Assembly (NCBI RefSeq): GCF_000420065.1
Contig: NZ_ATUF01000003.1
Coordinates: 248,001 to 312,000 of the forward strand
Direction: 5' to 3'
Length of the DNA: 64,000 nucleotides
From: Varibaculum cambriense DSM 15806
GTDB taxonomy: Bacteria > Actinomycetota > Actinomycetes > Actinomycetales > Actinomycetaceae
Shown in pieces: positions 30,856 to 39,847 of the stretch. The position numbers were made by a program, and so were the translations under genes. Position 1 is the stretch's first letter. Each line of letters opens with the position of its first letter. A model generated the notes under the pieces. The model made no database searches and was not told where the DNA came from. It saw only the letters and a program-made list of their open reading frames with translations.

Positions 30856-31206
30856 ATGCACGAAGTTGCGCTTTCGCGTCAACTGGCGCGGATAGTGTCG
30901 CGAAACGCAGCTGGCCGTGAGGTGCTAGAGGTCGAATTAGAGGTAGGACACTTGCGCCAGGTGGTTCCCGAAGCTCTCCATTTCGCCTGGAGCGCAGTTC
31001 GCAAAAATACCTTACGCGGTCCTGCCCGGCTCAATATCACTGAGATACCGGCGGTGGTATGCTGCCGCGAATGTAAAGCCACCACCGAATTGCGAGAAGT
31101 GTTGGATTTTCGCTGCCAAGAATGTTCATCGCGGGATTTGCAGATAATCAGCGGGGAAGAGTTTAGAGTGGTGTCTATTGAGGTGACACCCTTAAGGAAG
31201 GAATAA
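30856..31206 (+). CDS. hypA: hydrogenase nickel incorporation protein HypA (copy 1)
   Basis: Nickel metallochaperone that with HypB inserts nickel into the hydrogenase large subunit. N-terminal MHEVALS places the Ni-binding His at position 2. The zinc site is CREC...CQEC, with the CX2C pairs near residues 73-76 and 93-96. 116 residues. The ATG has GAGGAGGG upstream. It starts a likely hypA-hypB transcript, one base from hypB. A divergent second HypA lies at 37065. Confidence 0.95.
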   Translation: MHEVALSRQLARIVSRNAAGREVLEVELEVGHLRQVVPEALHFAWSAVRKNTLRGPARLNITEIPAVVCCRECKATTELREVLDFRCQECSSRDLQIISGEEFRVVSIEVTPLRKE

Positions 31207-32125: not shown

Positions 32126-33361
32126 ATGAGCTATGAGATAAAACCGTGGCGGGAGGGAACCCTCGCCGATAACCTCGCCAGCGCCGGGGTCAGCCGACGA
32201 GATTTCGTTAAATACTGTGCGGGCTTGGCAGCAATCTTTGCTGTGGGTACCCCCCAGATGGCGCATGCAGCTCCGGCGCAAAAAGCCGCCGAAGAATTGG
32301 CCGACAAACTAGGGGCGATCACCAAACCTAATGTGGTGTGGCTCCAGCTCCAAGAGTGTACCGGCTGCATGGAATCAGCTTTGCGCAGTGGCGGTACCAC
32401 CGTAGAAGAAGTGGTACTGAACCTACTTTCGGTGAATTACAACGAGCTGCTGATGGCCGCCGCGGGAGAAGCTGCGGAAGAAGCTTTGGCCGAAACCAAC
32501 GCCAAAAAGCATATTTTGGTAGTTAACGGCTCTGTTCCTACTAAAGATGGCGGTATCTACTGCACCATAGGTGGCAAAACTGCGGAACAGGTTCTGCGGG
32601 AATCGGCCGAAAACGCAGACATAATCTTGGCAGTGGGAGCCTGCGCAGTCTACGGTTCGGTGCAGGCGGCGAAACCCAACCCCACCGGGGCAGTAGGGGT
32701 AGATGAAATCATTAAAGATAAAGCGGTGATAAATGTTTCTGGTTGCCCCCCGATTGGGGAAGTAATCACTGCCTCCCTAACCTATATCTTGACCCACGGC
32801 AAGCCTCCCGAAGTTGATTCTGAAGGGCGTCCCCTCTTCGCCTATGGTCAGCGGATCCATGACTCCTGTCCGCGTCGCCCCCATTTTGATGCCGGGCAAT
32901 TCGTACGTACCTTTGACGATGCCGGAGCTCGCGAAGGTTGGTGCCTGTACGATGTGGGCTGTAAAGGCCCCTCTACCTTTAGCCCCTGCCCGATTGTGCA
33001 GTGGAATATGAAAGCAGGTTGGCCGATTGGTGCCGGTCACCCCTGTATCGGCTGCACCGAGCGTGACTTTTTCGACCGTTTCTCACCGTTCTATCAAGTC
33101 CTGCCAAACGTCCCCGGATTCGGAGTGGAAGCTACTGCCGAGAAGGTGGGATTGGGCTTTACCGGAGCGGTGGCGGCCGGTGTCGCTGTGCACGCGGGAG
33201 TTACCGCCGTTAGAGCTGCAGCAGACCGAAAAGCCACCCGGAATTCTCCGATGGCTGCCTTTGGGGACGCTACCGATGTTGATACCGAACCACCTTCCCC
33301 AGAGGAAACTCCCAACGCAGAAGTTCCTAAGGACAGCGAAAAGAACAGTGAGGCGAACTAA
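32126..33361 (+). CDS. hyaA: [NiFe]-hydrogenase small subunit, Tat-exported
   Basis: Electron-transfer subunit carrying three iron-sulfur clusters. The signal has the twin-Arg motif SRRDFVKYCAG near residue 24 followed by a hydrophobic stretch ending AHAAP, so the mature enzyme faces outside. Cluster ligands: LQECTGCMES, VGACAVYG, SGCPPIGE, DSCPRRPHFD, GCKGPSTFSPCP and GHPCIGCTERDFFD. A C-terminal membrane helix (about residues 340-365) and an acidic tail follow. The proximal motif is ECTGC, not the ECTCC of oxygen-tolerant enzymes. I use the ATG at 32126 with GAGGA upstream. Its stop shares one base with the large subunit. Confidence 0.95.
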   Translation: MSYEIKPWREGTLADNLASAGVSRRDFVKYCAGLAAIFAVGTPQMAHAAPAQKAAEELADKLGAITKPNVVWLQLQECTGCMESALRSGGTTVEEVVLNLLSVNYNELLMAAAGEAAEEALAETNAKKHILVVNGSVPTKDGGIYCTIGGKTAEQVLRESAENADIILAVGACAVYGSVQAAKPNPTGAVGVDEIIKDKAVINVSGCPPIGEVITASLTYILTHGKPPEVDSEGRPLFAYGQRIHDSCPRRPHFDAGQFVRTFDDAGAREGWCLYDVGCKGPSTFSPCPIVQWNMKAGWPIGAGHPCIGCTERDFFDRFSPFYQVLPNVPGFGVEATAEKVGLGFTGAVAAGVAVHAGVTAVRAAADRKATRNSPMAAFGDATDVDTEPPSPEETPNAEVPKDSEKNSEAN

Positions 33362-35103
33362 TGGCTGAAAAAGTAGTTATCGACCCGTTAACCCGCATTG
33401 AGGGACATCTGCGTATCGAGATGGAAACCGAAGGCGAGCAGATTAAAAAGGCCTGGAGCGTTAGTACCCAGTTTCGAGGGATCGAGACTATCGTCCAAAA
33501 TCGCGATCCTCGGGATGTATGGGCCTTCGTCCAACGTATTTGTGGGGTTTGCACTTCGGTTCACGCGATTGCTTCCATTACCGCAGTAGAAGATGCTATC
33601 GGTTCCAATCCCCCAGAAAATGCGCGGTTGATCCGCTCGCTGGTTTTGGGGTCACAAGAAATCCAGGATCACGTGATTCACTTCTATCACTTGCATGCTT
33701 TGGACTTCGTTAATGTTCCCAATGCGGCGAAGGCAGATCCGGCTAAAGCACTGGAGTTTGCCCACTCCATCGGTTCTAAATGGCGGGGCAATAACCTCAA
33801 GCGCTTCACCGAGGTTCGGGACACGGTGAAGAAAATCCTGGAGTCCGGACAGCTTTCGGTGTTTACCGGCGGGTACTGGGATCACCCAGATTATCGTCTT
33901 CCTCCCGAAGCAGATTTGATGTGCGTGGCGCACTATCTGGATGCTTTAGAGTTCCAACGCTCCATGATTCGTATCAATACGGTATTCGGGGGTAAGAACC
34001 CGCATCCGAACTTCTTGGTGGGCGGCATGGCCTGCTCGATTGATCCGCAGTCTTCTGAATCCATTAACCAGGTGCAAATGGATCAAGTAAAAACCTGGGT
34101 AGAAGAGATCAACGAGTTCGTCAAGGATTGTTACTACCCGGATATTTTAGCCTTGGGTGGGGTTTACAAAGACTACTTCGATATCGGCGCTACCCATCCG
34201 AATTACCTGGCAGTGGGGCTAGCCGGATCGATGTTTGCGGGTGATCCCAATAAATCTCGTCTTTCCTCACCGCACACCGCCATTAAGCCGGGAGTCATAT
34301 TCGACGATGATTTAACCAAGGTTCATCCTTTCGACCCCCACAAGATTGAAGAGTTTATTACTTCTGCTTGGTATGAGTATTCGGTGGGAGACAAGAAGGG
34401 ACTAACTCCCGACAAGGGAGAGACCACGGTAAAATACACCGGTCCGCAACCGCCTTTCAAATGGCTAGGTGACCGTGATAAATACACTTGGTCGAAAGCT
34501 CCTCGCTATGACGGTAAGCCGATGCAGGTCGGCCCGGTCGCGCGGATGCTTTTGGCCTATGCCCAAGGATACGAACCGGTTAAGAAGCTGCTCGACGGAG
34601 CGATAGCTACCTTAGGTATTACCCCCAAACAGATTAACTCTACGATGGGACGGACTTTTGCTCGGGCGGCGGAAGCAGTAGTGTCGGCCGATCTCATGCG
34701 CGAGGATTACAATGCTCTGGTTAAGAACATCAAGGAAGGCGATATTGATGTTTTCGATGCCAGTAAGTGGGAGCCCAGTCGTTGGCCGGCCGAAGCGCAA
34801 GGATATGCCTTCATTGAAGTTGCCCGGGGAGACCTATCGCACTGGGTATCAATCAAGGATGGAAAGGTGGATCGCTACCAAGCGGTAGTTCCTACTACCT
34901 GGCTGGCAGGAGGGCGCGACGCTCAAGGAGTTACCGGCCCCTACGAGGAATCCCTGATGGGGACAGGAACTCATCCGCTGGTGGATCCCAAGGCCCCCCT
35001 GGAACCGATGCGTACTATTCATTCCTATGATCCCTGTATGTCCTGTGGGGTTCACATTCTCGATCCCGATGGAAATCTTCTGGGTGAGGCGGTAACGTCA
35101 TGA
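33361..35103 (+). CDS. hyaB: [NiFe]-hydrogenase large subunit
   Basis: Catalytic subunit that oxidises H2 at the Ni-Fe(CN)2CO centre. N-terminal RIEGHLRIE and the metal motif RICGVCTSVHA near residue 60; the C-terminal motif DPCMSCGVH supplies the second Cys pair. A 15-residue tail (ILDPDGNLLGEAVTS) follows the last motif His, as expected for a peptide removed by the maturation protease after nickel insertion. 580 residues, standard for membrane-bound uptake enzymes. Starts within the hyaA stop and ends in a four-base overlap with the cytochrome gene. Confidence 0.97.
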   Translation: MAEKVVIDPLTRIEGHLRIEMETEGEQIKKAWSVSTQFRGIETIVQNRDPRDVWAFVQRICGVCTSVHAIASITAVEDAIGSNPPENARLIRSLVLGSQEIQDHVIHFYHLHALDFVNVPNAAKADPAKALEFAHSIGSKWRGNNLKRFTEVRDTVKKILESGQLSVFTGGYWDHPDYRLPPEADLMCVAHYLDALEFQRSMIRINTVFGGKNPHPNFLVGGMACSIDPQSSESINQVQMDQVKTWVEEINEFVKDCYYPDILALGGVYKDYFDIGATHPNYLAVGLAGSMFAGDPNKSRLSSPHTAIKPGVIFDDDLTKVHPFDPHKIEEFITSAWYEYSVGDKKGLTPDKGETTVKYTGPQPPFKWLGDRDKYTWSKAPRYDGKPMQVGPVARMLLAYAQGYEPVKKLLDGAIATLGITPKQINSTMGRTFARAAEAVVSADLMREDYNALVKNIKEGDIDVFDASKWEPSRWPAEAQGYAFIEVARGDLSHWVSIKDGKVDRYQAVVPTTWLAGGRDAQGVTGPYEESLMGTGTHPLVDPKAPLEPMRTIHSYDPCMSCGVHILDPDGNLLGEAVTS

Positions 35104-36413
35104 GTGATAAAACGGGAACGGCAACTGTAGGATTATCGAAAAAATCCTCTGAGAAAGCTTTAGCAAAGGCGAATAAAGATCGACAAATCGAGTTTTTCGC
35201 TCAAGATAAAGCGAAAACCGAGGGGATTGAGGTCGGGGGCGGCTTCAGTTGTTCGGATATCTCCCTGCGACGCCTGCTGGTAATGGCGGCGGTTTCCCCG
35301 GAAGGCAGCACGGATCCGGTAGATGTAGCGCTTAAAGAGTCGCTGCGCTACCGATTCCGCCATGGCGCCCCCAATGTAGAGATCCCGGCCGAAAACTTCG
35401 ATCCCGCGGTCGATCGGCGCTACTCGTTGGCGCGTATCAATGATATGAAGCGGACTAAGACCGGGGAGTCTCGTAATACGGTTATTGCGCGGGGTGATCT
35501 CGAATCGGTGATGAATGTTGCCGCCCCCGAACGATCGCTGCGAACTTTGCTAAGGAAGAATGCGCAGATGGCGGGGTCGCGCGGCTACCGCTGTCTGGGG
35601 GTTGCCACCGCCACCGTGGATGAAAACGGCAATATCAGCCCCTTCACGATGGAAGGCTTTGTCAATGTGCGTCCGGTCGGTACCGGTCTGCAAGGCGGAG
35701 AGCTTACTCCCACCAGTGAAGATTGGGTCAGGCTTAGCGTCTGGTCTGCTAGTTTGCGTTTCCTGCATTGGTTTAACGTTTTCCTGATCGTTACCCTCTC
35801 CGTAACTGGCTACTACATTATGGATCCGTTCTTTGGGGATACTTTCTTCCGGGGGATAGATCCGGGATACCTCATGGGGATTATGCGTTTCATCCACTTT
35901 GCAGCAGCATTTGCCTGGCTGGCGGTGGGGGCTGCCCGGGTAATTATTGCTTTCATCTCCAAAGATCGCTATATGAGGTGGGAAACTTTCTGGCCGTTTA
36001 AGAAGAAACAAGACTGGATTAATTTCAAAGAGACGGTAGGTTTTTACCTCTTCTTACGCAAAGAGAGCCCGCTTTATGTGGCGCACAATCCGCTGCAGCA
36101 GATGGCCTACACTTCTATTTATGTCCTAGGGGCTTTCCAGATGCTTATCGGAGTGGCGTTGTATGCATTGCCATACAAAAACACCAACCTTTTTTGGCAA
36201 ATATTGGCGGCTCCCAATGACTGGTTGGGAATCCCGATGATGCGTTTCATCCACGCCATGATCATGTTCATGTTCTGGGGTTTCGTCATCGGGCATATTT
36301 ATCTTGCTTTCCGGGCAGATTCGCTGGAACGTCACGGAGGAATCTCCTCCATGATTTCCGGCGGGGTTTGGATGCGTCGTGCCTCAAAGCCCTATGATGC
36401 TCCTGAACTTTAG
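35100..36413 (+). CDS. hyaC: hydrogenase b-type cytochrome fused to a P-type-ATPase N-domain-like region
   Basis: The C-terminal half (about residues 218-437) is the usual hydrogenase cytochrome b: four membrane helices with candidate heme His residues in FLHWFN, FIHFAAAF, FIHAMIMF and GHIYLAF, passing electrons from the small subunit to quinone. The N-terminal half is unexpected. After a charged start, residues about 50-200 follow the layout of a P-type ATPase nucleotide-binding domain: LLVMAAVSPEGSTDPVDVAL, NFDPAVDRRYSLARI, VIARGDLESVMNVA (where pumps have KGAPE), then GYRCLGVATATVD and GFVNVRP. The usual ATP-contact Lys is Arg. There is no phosphorylation DKTGT and no pump helices. Standard HyaC is about 230 residues. 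Overlaps hyaB by four bases. Confidence 0.85.
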   Translation: MSDKTGTATVGLSKKSSEKALAKANKDRQIEFFAQDKAKTEGIEVGGGFSCSDISLRRLLVMAAVSPEGSTDPVDVALKESLRYRFRHGAPNVEIPAENFDPAVDRRYSLARINDMKRTKTGESRNTVIARGDLESVMNVAAPERSLRTLLRKNAQMAGSRGYRCLGVATATVDENGNISPFTMEGFVNVRPVGTGLQGGELTPTSEDWVRLSVWSASLRFLHWFNVFLIVTLSVTGYYIMDPFFGDTFFRGIDPGYLMGIMRFIHFAAAFAWLAVGAARVIIAFISKDRYMRWETFWPFKKKQDWINFKETVGFYLFLRKESPLYVAHNPLQQMAYTSIYVLGAFQMLIGVALYALPYKNTNLFWQILAAPNDWLGIPMMRFIHAMIMFMFWGFVIGHIYLAFRADSLERHGGISSMISGGVWMRRASKPYDAPEL

Positions 36414-36427
36414 ATTGAAAGGAATAG

Positions 36428-37075
36428 ATGTCGGCAGGTAACTTGACGTCTGCGGGGGACTTTACCCCGCAATTTCCTGCGAGTTTACCATCAGAAATAC
36501 CCTTAGGGGCAGAAAATAGTGATCACTATTTACCCCTTCCTGACATCTCTCAGGCTGATGGTAGTGCTTGGGAAGGAAGCCGTTTTACCGTCTTGGCGGT
36601 GGGAAACCCGATCATGGGTGATGATGGCATTGGCCTAGAGATCCTAGCGGGACTACAAGCATTAGTACCCCAGCGTCCTGCTTGGCAGGCTGCGATCGCC
36701 CGGGGAGAACTATCACTGTTAGAAGGTGGAACTAACGGTATGGAGCTGGTTCCGGTAGTTCAAGAGGCTGAGCGACTCTTGATTCTAGATTCCGTAGCTC
36801 CTGGCAAGGAGCGCCAACCGGGGCAAGCACTGCATATGAGTGGGGATCATGTACCCCGCCTACTTTCAATGAAGATGTCACCGCACCAGGTGGGACTGCT
36901 TGATGTGTTAAGCTCTGCCCGCCTTACGGGAAAAGAGCCCGCAGTGCTAGAAGTTGTAGGAGTAGTTAGCGAAAAAGTAGACCTCCACTTAGGTTTAACT
37001 GCTACCGCCGCATCGGGAATAAAACCAGCGGTCAATTATGCTGCCCAGATCCTAGATTCGTGGGTTAATCCTTAG
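36428..37075 (+). CDS. hyaD: hydrogenase maturation protease
   Basis: Endopeptidase that trims the large-subunit C-terminus once nickel is bound. The metal-sensing motif VLAVGNPIMGDDGIGLEIL includes the conserved Asp; GGTNGMELVPVVQEAERLLILDSV supplies the second acid and MSPHQVGLLDVLS the His. It is 215 residues with an N-terminal extension of about 50 residues beyond the usual start, of unknown role. SD GAAAGGA precedes the ATG. Its 3' end overlaps the convergent second hypA by 11 bases. Confidence 0.93.
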   Translation: MSAGNLTSAGDFTPQFPASLPSEIPLGAENSDHYLPLPDISQADGSAWEGSRFTVLAVGNPIMGDDGIGLEILAGLQALVPQRPAWQAAIARGELSLLEGGTNGMELVPVVQEAERLLILDSVAPGKERQPGQALHMSGDHVPRLLSMKMSPHQVGLLDVLSSARLTGKEPAVLEVVGVVSEKVDLHLGLTATAASGIKPAVNYAAQILDSWVNP

Positions 37076-37421
37076 CCCATTCCACCCAGGAAATTTCAAA
37101 CTCACGACCGTGAGCCAGATTGCCAGTAGGCATCCCGCATTCTGGGCATAGCAGCGCAAAAAACTCGTCAATCTCTACCTCTTTACTGCAATTCGGGCAG
37201 TAGACACTAGCGGGAATGGTGTTTACCTCGAGCTCGGCCGAACTACAAATGGTGTTTTCGCGAGCGATTGGCCAGGAACCATAAAGAGCTTCTGGAATAG
37301 CGCCAGACATAGTACCGACATTTAGCGCGACTTTTTCAACTCGGGTAACCTGATAATCAGCGTCAGCGGCTGCTTTTTCCACCGCCGCCACTACCGAAGT
37401 TAATAGCCCAAGTTCATGCAT
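37065..37421 (-). CDS. hypA: hydrogenase nickel incorporation protein HypA (copy 2)
   Basis: Second HypA/HybF-type nickel chaperone. MHELGLLTSVV has the Ni-binding His2, and CPNC...CPEC near residues 74-94 binds zinc. 118 residues, with clear divergence from the first copy. It lies on the minus strand between hyaD and the large-subunit-like gene and is divergent from the latter. Either a backup or a partner dedicated to the neighbouring HupK-like module. Confidence 0.93.
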   Translation of the reverse strand: MHELGLLTSVVAAVEKAAADADYQVTRVEKVALNVGTMSGAIPEALYGSWPIARENTICSSAELEVNTIPASVYCPNCSKEVEIDEFFALLCPECGMPTGNLAHGREFEISWVEWAKD

Positions 37422-37444: not shown

Positions 37445-38704
37445 ATGAAAATCAACCTAGATGAAATCATTGATCCGCTGGAAGGGCGGGTAGTGGTATC
37501 CCCAGACTCGCAAGGCCAGGCTCATGCTCGTTTTGATCTGCAAGGTTTACCGCGGATAGACGGAATGTTGGTGGGAAAATCTGCGCTGGAAGCCTTGAAA
37601 ATGACCGAGCATTTATGCGGGATATGCCCAGTAGCTCACCATTTAGCCGGGATCCGCGCCCTCGATACGCTCAGCGACAGTGCGCAACTATCGCGGGCAG
37701 CTGAGCTTACCCGCCGCCTACTACATTACGGATCGGTGGTGGAAACCCATTCCCTACGGTTCTTACGCCAAGACCGCGATAGCGGGATTACGCTAAAGAA
37801 AATCTCTAAGAAAATGCTGATTGCAGCAGGTTCGCCAGGGCATTTCCCAACTACCGCCGTGCCGGGAGGGGTTAGAAATTGGCCGAATATCGAAGATTTA
37901 AAGACCCTTCAAAAAGACCTATCTGGCGCGTTAACCAGCGCCGAAAAGCTGTGCGAACTAGCTCTCAACATTCAGCCTAAGACCGCAGTATTTAGCCAGT
38001 TTGCGGGGATAGATTTAGCTTTGATTAACGAGGACGGAGACCCGGATATTTTTGGAAACAGGGTTCGGGCAGCGCGCGCCGGTTCGACCTGGAAAGAGTT
38101 TGACTTCTCGCAGTGGAACCAGCAGATAACTGAGGATAATCCGGGCGCACCAGCACCGCGTCCCTATTTGACTGGTTTGGGCGCAAAAGAAGGGGGCTAT
38201 CGGGTAGGGCCGGTTGCGCAGCTTTCGGTGGGCCTCTTACCCAGTGAGCTGGCAAGCGCGGCGCAAGTACGCTGGTTAGCGGCTAGCCGAGATGCGGCTA
38301 GTGCGCGCGCAATCATTACCTTGCACGTCTTGGAAAGAACTGTCGCGCTAGTGTCTGAGCTTATAGATTTGCTTGCACCAGGACAACTGGAAGATTGCCC
38401 CCCGGTGGAGCAGGCACGTTTTAAAGAGGGAGTTGCCACCGGACTGGTTGATGGTCCGCGCGGATTGCTGGCTCATACCTACCGCACCGATTCCCAAGGG
38501 GTGATTAGTGCCGCTACCATCCTGACTCCTACCGCGCAAAACGAACCCTGGCTGGCAGATCTATTAACCCAGGCGATCAGCAGAAAAGATGCGAGTAGAC
38601 AAGCAGTTCTAGAGCAATCAATCCGTGAGGCTGATCCCTGTCTGCCGCTGAGTTCAGCTCCGGAGGGGCAAATGGGGCTGACGGTTGATACCCTGCAAAA
38701 CTAG
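37445..38704 (+). CDS. hydrogenase large-subunit-like assembly protein (HupK/HoxV-like)
   Basis: Homologous to [NiFe]-hydrogenase large subunits but not a normal catalytic one. The N-terminal metal motif is present as EHLCGICPVAHHLAG (Cys58, Cys61, His65), with Leu where catalytic subunits have Arg/Ile. The C-terminal site reads DPCLPLSS (Cys399) in place of DPCxxCxxH, so the second Cys and His are absent, and there is no removable tail. At 419 residues it is much shorter than the real subunit. No small subunit accompanies it. These traits match HupK/HoxV, which serve as scaffolds for the Fe(CN)2CO group. Flanked by extra hypA and hypC copies. Confidence 0.8.
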   Translation: MKINLDEIIDPLEGRVVVSPDSQGQAHARFDLQGLPRIDGMLVGKSALEALKMTEHLCGICPVAHHLAGIRALDTLSDSAQLSRAAELTRRLLHYGSVVETHSLRFLRQDRDSGITLKKISKKMLIAAGSPGHFPTTAVPGGVRNWPNIEDLKTLQKDLSGALTSAEKLCELALNIQPKTAVFSQFAGIDLALINEDGDPDIFGNRVRAARAGSTWKEFDFSQWNQQITEDNPGAPAPRPYLTGLGAKEGGYRVGPVAQLSVGLLPSELASAAQVRWLAASRDAASARAIITLHVLERTVALVSELIDLLAPGQLEDCPPVEQARFKEGVATGLVDGPRGLLAHTYRTDSQGVISAATILTPTAQNEPWLADLLTQAISRKDASRQAVLEQSIREADPCLPLSSAPEGQMGLTVDTLQN

Positions 38705-39078: not shown

Positions 39079-39468
39079 GTGGCATGTTTTATTGTTCCAA
39101 CCGTAGAAGCAGTGGCGGTTACGGCAGCTAAGAAACAAATCGCAAGGAAAGCAAAAAATGGTGCTTCCCCGGAAAGTACCGAACGTTCTTTAAATCTAGT
39201 TCGCAAGCTGACCTGGCTAACCAACCTGCTATGGGGCGGAGCCTTGTTGCTGGCTTTTGAGCACCTCTGGCATGGGGAAGTGATCCCATATTTCCCGTTC
39301 CTGTCTGCGCTTACGGAGCGATCAACCACCCAGCAGATGCTATTTGAAATGGGAACCGTGGGTGTCGGGATGGCAGTGCTGGTCACCGCAGTCTGGGGGA
39401 TTGGAGTAGCCCTGATTCGCGCTAACGAACGGCGTACCAACCCAGCTCCTGAAAAGATCGAGGCGTAA
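39079..39468 (+). CDS. small membrane protein of unknown function, hydrogenase-linked
   Basis: 129 residues; I cannot name the family. The N-terminus is a short hydrophobic segment (ACFIVPTVEAVAVT) followed by a basic patch. Two clear membrane helices follow, about 44-63 (WLTNLLWGGALLLAFEHLW) and 90-113 (MGTVGVGMAVLVTAVWGIGV), with a HGEVIPYFPFL loop between. GTG start with GAAGGAG upstream. Cotranscribed with the next membrane protein and placed at the end of the hydrogenase region, so a role in hydrogenase membrane attachment, electron transfer or nickel supply is possible but unproven. Confidence 0.7.
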   Translation: MACFIVPTVEAVAVTAAKKQIARKAKNGASPESTERSLNLVRKLTWLTNLLWGGALLLAFEHLWHGEVIPYFPFLSALTERSTTQQMLFEMGTVGVGMAVLVTAVWGIGVALIRANERRTNPAPEKIEA

Positions 39469-39478
39469 AGGATTAACA

Positions 39479-39847
39479 ATGACTCTAGTAATCACCCTTT
39501 TTGCGGCAATCTGTTCCACCGCCTGGTGGTATGCACATGCCCCCCAATCAAAAATGCGGGTAGATCTCCTTTGCTGGATGTACTGGGGAGCCTCTCTAAT
39601 GTGGACAGTTGACCTGGCCGCTGAATATATCGAAGAAGGCGCAGAGGTATTTTCGCCTGCTGCCAGCGATATGCTCAACGATACCTACCTGGGTCTGTTC
39701 GTGGTGGCACTGGCCGGTATTGTCTGGATCGGTTACCTGATCGTTAAGGATCCCCGTGGGGTTCGCACCCAGCTATTGGCGCAGCGGGAAACTGCTCTTG
39801 ATCGAGATGCCAGTGTCGACGCGAAAGATTTAGTCGCTTCTCGTTAA
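39479..39847 (+). CDS. small three-helix membrane protein of unknown function
   Basis: 122 residues. Predicted helices at about 2-20 (LVITLFAAICSTAWWYAHA), 30-48 (LLCWMYWGASLMWTVDLAA) and 69-89 (TYLGLFVVALAGIVWIGYLI), then a charged cytoplasmic tail. Trp- and Tyr-rich helices and a conserved-looking Asp in WTVDLAAEY stand out. It follows the preceding membrane protein after ten bases, so the two probably form a pair. A strong terminator follows. Function unknown. Confidence 0.7.
   Translation: MTLVITLFAAICSTAWWYAHAPQSKMRVDLLCWMYWGASLMWTVDLAAEYIEEGAEVFSPAASDMLNDTYLGLFVVALAGIVWIGYLIVKDPRGVRTQLLAQRETALDRDASVDAKDLVASR

Follow-up and report, generated by a model that had tools for sequence, protein, structure and literature searches.

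Results

An extended hydrogenase cytochrome b in Varibaculum cambriense

We analysed a 64,000-nucleotide stretch of the genome of Varibaculum cambriense DSM 15806 (contig NZ_ATUF01000003.1, positions 248,001 to 312,000 of the forward strand), hereafter called the window, in which a hyaC-type gene encodes a hydrogenase cytochrome b preceded by a domain that is predicted to have the fold of the nucleotide-binding (N) domain of P-type ATPases. A preliminary description of this DNA had read the gene in the same way, as a HyaC-type cytochrome with a long N-terminal extension, encoded in a continuous frame that leaves the overlap with hyaB intact. The open reading frame (ORF) at 35100-36413 on the plus strand is indeed unbroken over 437 codons, and its ATG overlaps the stop codon of hyaB (ATGA). 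The gene and its parts are as follows:

35100..36413, plus strand: hyaC-type gene, 437 residues, predicted N domain followed by hydrogenase cytochrome b (PF01292 and TIGR02125 on residues 214-421)
35100..35225, plus strand: N-terminal tail or linker, residues 1-42, starting MSDKTGTAT; variable in length and letters among relatives and outside the modelled domain
35226..35675, plus strand: predicted P-type-ATPase-like N domain, residues 43-192 (AlphaFold, VIA against Pma1, hhalign)
35676..35738, plus strand: linker from the N domain to the first transmembrane segment (TM1), with a predicted local distance difference test score (pLDDT) of about 50 and a conserved Trp209 (22/22 sequences)
35739..36362, plus strand: cytochrome b domain with four transmembrane (TM) segments, residues 214-421, with His223, 266, 385 and 399 (PF01292, TIGR02125, hydropathy)

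Residues 214-421 are matched by PF01292 (E 1.2e-29, 103.8 bits vs a cut-off of 30.1, model positions 1-179 of 179) and by TIGR02125 (E 7.7e-41, 139.9 bits vs 121.5, positions 2-206 of 212), and since the match starts at residue 214, about 205 residues are extra at the N-terminus. With four hydrophobic segments, from near residues 217, 258, 335 and 375 onward by hydropathy, four histidines invariant in 20/20 homologues, and a position directly after hyaA-hyaB and before hyaD, the protein resembles ordinary HyaC and differs from it by the residues added in front. We take His223, 266, 385 and 399 to be the haem ligands, as in the HyaC family. Most Lys and Arg residues of the membrane part lie, by eye, in the loop 287-334 and at the C-terminus, so that both termini of the cytochrome should be cytosolic (N-in); the N domain would then lie on the cytosolic side of the membrane and should see cytosolic nucleotides.

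The extension is predicted to fold as a P-type ATPase N domain

An AlphaFold2 model of residues 43-216, based on 20 aligned homologues with the window protein leading, reached a pLDDT of 85.1 and a predicted template modelling score (pTM) of 0.81, and another with a divergent relative (L016) in the lead reached 83.8 and 0.80, although the two share most alignment rows and are hence not fully independent. Foldseek returned 21 PDB matches at E <=0.001 for the window model, the best being AHA2 (5ksd, E 3.4e-6), and all 50 among the matches listed were P-type ATPases. In structural comparisons with VIA, the window model aligned with Pma1 (9ugb) at Z 17.4 (149 residues aligned, 3.5 Å) and with AHA2 (5ksd) at Z 17.2, and the L016 model with Pma1 at Z 17.1 (137 aligned, 2.3 Å, 23% identity, Pma1 residues 388-535) and with AHA2 at Z 15.8. 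For each model, 49/50 among the matches listed were P-type ATPases by title, the exception being 9byb, a 'membrane transport protein'. The window model also resembles N domains that were solved alone, namely those of KdpB (1svj, Z 12.8), HMA8 (5lbk, Z 14.2) and a Mg-ATPase (3gwi, Z 13.2); unlike these fragments cut from pumps, the domain described here is naturally pump-free.

A Pfam search of the window protein gave no match in the extension, and Pfam on 20 related extensions gave nothing beyond four single-member matches (E 0.06-0.23), which we took as chance. The NCBIfam model of plasma-membrane H+-ATPases, TIGR01647, weakly matched residues 57-176 (E 0.0012) and matched 11/20 homologous extensions (best E 1.3e-4). 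When 22 extensions were compared by hhalign with P-type segments of all classes, the E-value was 7.7e-10 (probability 96.5); by class it was 6.2e-8 for P3A, over 118 columns, 4.1e-7 for MgtA-like, 1.6e-5 for type II and 0.0064, over just 31 columns, for P1B pumps, where each E-value stands for one comparison and class labels were assigned by us. P3A was thus the best single class, by a small margin over MgtA-like pumps, and the reversed extension, used as a control, gave E 0.04-0.62. In a search of PDB sequences, the profile of 20 extensions found nothing significant (best E 0.036, the CopA hinge; AHA2 at E 0.23), so that this search alone could not settle the fold. A phmmer search of the extension against the same sequences gave nothing beyond interferon-gamma (E 0.004 and 0.013) and influenza PB2 (E 1.1), both of which we regard as chance matches.

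Searches of genomes with the extension profile also led to genuine pumps. Among 394 genomes of the class, the profile found its own gene and three P-type ATPases, all three matched on their N domain in register. Among 396 genomes of the phylum, it gave 11 weak matches outside its own gene, four of them (L043, L044, L045 and L050) on pump N domains in register and four (L047, L051, L052 and L053) on the hinge of P1B pumps; one locus is common to the in-register pump matches of the two scans. The remaining three (L046, L048 and L049) showed neither a pump motif nor a cytochrome and were dismissed, and these three and L051 lay above E 1 when re-scored. Weak matches of the single sequence (L023, L024, L025 and L027), with no pump motif or pump-like frame, were likewise set aside as chance.

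Predicted fold and profile-profile comparison, together with the selection described below, agree, and the likeness is therefore more than chance; on these models and alignments we regard residues 43-192 as, with very little doubt, a P-type ATPase N domain. The preliminary description had likened the domain above all to that of plasma-membrane H+-ATPases, and the structure search, the profile comparison and the in-register matches to real pumps uphold this. All the N-domain segments it quoted are present in the window protein, and the checks it had proposed, a profile search and a structure prediction, gave the E-values of TIGR01647 and hhalign and the Z-scores to Pma1 reported above. Neither of the contrary outcomes that were looked for, a different fold or another known domain in this region of homologous cytochromes, was found.

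The protein shares with the P3A N domain of Pma1 and AHA2 (TIGR01647) its predicted fold, its order of elements and the motifs DP[VI]D, FDP, [KR]G and G.R.L.VA. Unlike these pumps, it is joined to an electron-transfer protein and has no DKTGT in register. In line with the preliminary description, phosphorylation and pump domains were not found: Pfam and NCBIfam detected no phosphorylation (P) domain, and together with hydropathy they revealed no actuator (A) domain or pump TM bundle, only the cytochrome b segments. With neither an in-register DKTG, the site of the phosphorylated Asp, nor a P domain with its GDGxND, the protein is not a whole P-type ATPase. Its only DKTGT lies at residues 3-7, in the MSDKTGTAT start (35106-35126); we considered and rejected a relic of the pump phosphorylation motif, since relatives read DKAGTPT, DKPGTTT or are unlike it, and the motif stands about 30 residues too far before the domain. 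The genome itself holds two P-type ATPase genes (TIGR01494), both on another contig than hyaC, and no P-type ATPase above the P3A cut-off; recent copying from a P3A pump of the same genome is therefore not the source of the domain.

Most nucleotide-contact positions are kept

In a joint alignment of 22 extensions and 18 pump sequences, we followed the positions that contact the nucleotide in pumps:

35322..35324, plus strand: Asp75 of DPVD; Asp in 22/22 extensions, Asp or Glu in 18/18 pumps
35397..35399, plus strand: Phe100; Phe in 14/22 extensions, Val, Ile or Ala in 8
35415..35420, plus strand: Arg106-Arg107, at the K-R pair position of P3A pumps; Arg106 in 20/22 and Arg107 in 22/22 extensions
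35490..35495, plus strand: Arg131-Gly132, at the KG of the KGA motif; R-G in 22/22 extensions, K-G in 18/18 pumps
35589..35597, plus strand: Arg164-Cys-Leu166; Arg164 and Leu166 in 22/22 extensions

In SERCA numbering, we take Asp75 to correspond to the acidic contact Glu442, Phe100 to the adenine-stacking Phe487, and Arg164 and Leu166 to Arg560 and Leu562. The pumps have Lys or Arg at the Arg106 position in 17/18 sequences, Arg at the Arg107 position in 13/18, Arg at the Arg164 position in 18/18 and Leu at the Leu166 position in 12/18. Judged from this alignment, most nucleotide-contact positions are kept in the extensions. The ATP-contact Lys of the KGA motif is Arg throughout, in agreement with the preliminary description.

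The fusion is conserved and was probably inherited as a unit

The window protein matched 11/213 genomes of its family (its own included), each across both extension and cytochrome, and the extension alone, among 297 genomes of the order, matched its own genome and 10 that belong to a single other family (f20); further matches in 3 genomes were taken as chance. Scanning 84,980 species genomes with two short peptide patterns only, we obtained 14 loci, in Varibaculum, Mobiluncus, one record titled Tissierella sp., and metagenome-assembled genomes (MAGs) titled Bifidobacteriaceae (six, one of them a fragment) and Propionibacteriaceae (two). The V. cambriense match stands at 94% in the extension. 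Five rows from the Bifidobacteriaceae MAGs exactly repeat rows from f20. Alignment A5 comprises 22 rows, 17 of them distinct and five copies. The isolate codes suggest that the fusion-bearing MAGs probably come from termite guts. In the accessible part of a study of Bifidobacteriaceae from termite gut flagellates, only [FeFe] hydrogenase is reported, cytochrome and quinone pathways are generally absent and an extended cytochrome is not described (PMC11707648); from that text, its lineages look different from the fusion-bearing MAGs.

The record of Tissierella sp. Marseille-P2918 (L031:4001-4522) holds a Varibaculum-like fusion gene with the same figures as L007, which comes from a genome assigned to the genus of the window; the name of the record is therefore probably wrong. 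Both MAGs titled Propionibacteriaceae carry the fusion (L034:4001-4501 and L035:4001-4513), and in the cytochrome tree L034 is placed among those of f20, a position that hints at transfer or mis-binning.

Ordinary HyaC proteins of the phylum appear to be free of the domain. TIGR02125 matched at E 1e-10 in 75 of the 396 phylum genomes, in which the extension profile revealed no additional fusion, and among the matches listed (30 loci, one of them the window) the profile matched none of the 29 other actinobacterial HyaC-like loci at E 10. In 28 of these, 0-22 in-frame residues precede the cytochrome; the other (L056) has 113, which by eye are largely hyaB in another frame. Left out before counting were L022/L026 (pieces of one genome), L012/L042/L055 (the window itself), and L028-L033 and L036-L041 (the same genes as other loci, or a fragment). 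The survey of homologues that the preliminary description had called for thus places the extension in 22 distinct sequences and in none of these 29 loci.

In all 22 distinct sequences, the window's included, the C-terminus of hyaB (DPCMSC..H) directly precedes the extension, which is 169-217 residues long when the first start codon at the hyaB junction is taken, and the ATGA overlap is kept in 21/22. Since the same architecture recurs in family genomes, in named Varibaculum and Mobiluncus records and in MAGs, it is no assembly fusion, just as the preliminary description had argued. The ratio of nonsynonymous to synonymous substitution rates (dN/dS) was 0.030-0.079 for the extension and 0.017-0.077 for the cytochrome, from 8 of the 22 sequences with 22/28 pairs giving a value and many dS saturated; the two least saturated pairs gave 0.049 and 0.044. 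Strong purifying selection acts on the extensions tested. In a tree built from 51 cytochrome rows, with a long-branch warning among the plain, unextended ones, a branch with support 99 has all 22 extended rows on the same side. Moreover, the trees of extension and cytochrome have 14/19 splits in common, compared with an average of 0.27 and at most 2 in 300 label shuffles, and N domain and cytochrome coevolve. The simplest explanation is a single fusion, after which both parts were passed on together.

The surrounding hydrogenase cluster

The cytochrome gene is linked to hydrogenase genes in the order hyaA-hyaB-hyaC-hyaD:

32126..33361, plus strand: hyaA, [NiFe]-hydrogenase small subunit (TIGR00391, E 1.6e-122)
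33361..35103, plus strand: hyaB, [NiFe]-hydrogenase large subunit (profile match and PDB sequence match, closest 3myr)
36428..37075, plus strand: hyaD-type maturation protease (NF007777, TIGR00072)

The whole cluster reads hypF (minus strand), hypA, hypB, hyaA, hyaB, extended hyaC, hyaD, a second hypA-like gene (minus strand) and a large-subunit-like gene, and upstream of it lie genes that by eye read like hypD (minus strand) and hypE. HyaA has, by eye, an RR motif for twin-arginine translocation (Tat) and a C-terminal hydrophobic stretch, so that the HyaA-HyaB dimer should sit outside, anchored to the cytochrome. A V. cambriense genome paper describes hydrogenase subunits that donate electrons to anaerobic respiration, as well as a near-complete menaquinone pathway (PMC4177395).

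Several neighbours deserve mention in their own right. The ORF at 37445-38704 (plus strand) beside the operon encodes a 419-residue [NiFe] large-subunit-like protein, whose best match, VhuA, is far below the cut-off; by eye it has CGIC near its N-terminus and ends in DPCLPL, from which one of the usual Ni-ligating Cys seems to be missing. The two hypA-like genes, at 30856-31206 (plus strand) and 37065-37421 (minus strand), both score slightly under the TIGR00100 cut-off. Downstream, at 39079-39847 (plus strand), lie two small ORFs of 129 and 122 residues that are hydrophobic by eye and have no NCBIfam match.

Discussion

We propose that the gene product is the cytochrome b through which a [NiFe] uptake hydrogenase, bound to the membrane and exported by Tat, reduces quinone. 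Its N-terminus would have gained a P-type ATPase N domain, most like that of P3A pumps, in a single fusion that dates to the common ancestor of all carriers or earlier. The cytochrome presumably still moves electrons from H2 through its b haems to menaquinone. Because no P or A domain was found, a phosphorylation cycle is not possible in the extended cytochrome, and the N domain would take part in neither phosphorylation nor pumping. Most likely, it would hold an adenine nucleotide in the retained pocket and change its position against the cytosolic loops of the cytochrome, so that assembly or electron flow would follow the ATP/ADP state. We put the chances of an adenine-nucleotide-responsive control of H2-to-menaquinone electron flow a little below even, and advance more tentatively the specific view that the N domain was recruited as a regulator outside any pump, reads the adenine-nucleotide state and gates this flow.

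In favour of such control we count the predicted fold, the profile match, the invariant pocket positions, the low dN/dS, the shared tree splits and the probable N-in topology. Isolated N domains of some pumps also bind ATP: that of ATP7B does so at 52-74 µM (PMC3203118), and values of 1.4 mM for KdpB and 0.7-2.4 mM for SERCA are cited in another study (PMC5089723). A millimolar affinity would suit the sensing of cellular ATP, and we therefore favour a control domain over docking or another ligand. Several observations weigh against it. The KGA lysine is replaced by Arg in 22/22 extensions, the adenine-stacking Phe is absent in 8/22, and the pocket residues that are kept may also serve the fold. 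We take the KGA lysine to be K474 of yeast Pma1. K474R is listed among the dominant lethal alleles of Pma1 (PMC3692421), so that the pump tolerates this replacement badly and the N domain of the cytochrome works under other demands. In addition, the isolated N domains of HMA6 and HMA8 gave no ATP signal by isothermal titration calorimetry (PMC5089723), and we found no precedent for nucleotide control of a HyaC cytochrome in the full-text literature searched, a body that excludes most subscription journals and all bioRxiv preprints.

These same substitutions lend weight to the chief alternative, in which the N domain no longer binds nucleotide and serves as a rigid module for docking or assembly: the surface it shows to the cytosol would tie the cytochrome to another protein or help the complex to assemble, and its pocket arginines would bind a protein carboxylate or other anion. 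That isolated N domains are often weak ATP binders, HMA6 and HMA8 not measurably so (PMC5089723), and that Pfam and NCBIfam found no P domain fit this alternative as well, and we consider it a serious possibility that falls short of even odds; yet the invariant positions include most of the pump nucleotide contacts, and docking alone would not require these to be kept. It is also conceivable, although improbable, that the pocket now serves a different ligand, such as another nucleotide, a dinucleotide or an anionic metabolite, through which redox rather than energy state would be reported. The uniform Lys-to-Arg change in an otherwise kept pocket and the partial absence of the aromatic stacker would agree with this, but Pfam, NCBIfam and Foldseek gave no convincing match to another ligand-binding family, the few non-pump matches being single members at E 0.04-0.23.

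Two further explanations we regard as very improbable. A neutral relic, or an assembly or annotation artefact of a cytochrome beside a pump gene, might be suspected from the lack of such an extension in ordinary HyaC, but the fusion stands behind hyaB in 22 distinct sequences with low dN/dS and congruent trees, and the two P-type ATPase genes of the genome are on another contig. Homology not to the N domain but to the hinge segment behind the P domain in P1B metal ATPases could be read from TIGR01525, which matches 6/20 extensions (best E 8.7e-4), from the PDB sequence search, where CopA and HMA4 match best over this segment (E 0.036-0.14) and before AHA2, and from the four hinge matches among the 11 of the phylum scan. 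However, this segment amounts to only about 40 of 150 residues, whereas the predicted fold matches the N domain along its entire length (Z up to 17) and the P3A profile comparison spans 118 columns; we rejected hinge homology as an explanation and take it as a local resemblance.

Finally, the P-type N domain is generally regarded as a pump part, and the literature named above holds no report of an N domain in an electron-transfer protein or of a fusion between a hydrogenase and an N domain. Both parts are known; as far as we have seen, their union, and the presence of an N domain in an electron-transfer protein, are new. Varibaculum and Mobiluncus are human-associated genera, and the domain sits on a respiratory cytochrome of these and of probable termite-gut actinobacteria. 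Should nucleotide sensing prove false, the protein would be a useful case of an ATP-binding fold turned scaffold. If it is true, the fusion would couple H2 oxidation directly to energy charge, and the energy state of the cell may control its use of hydrogen.

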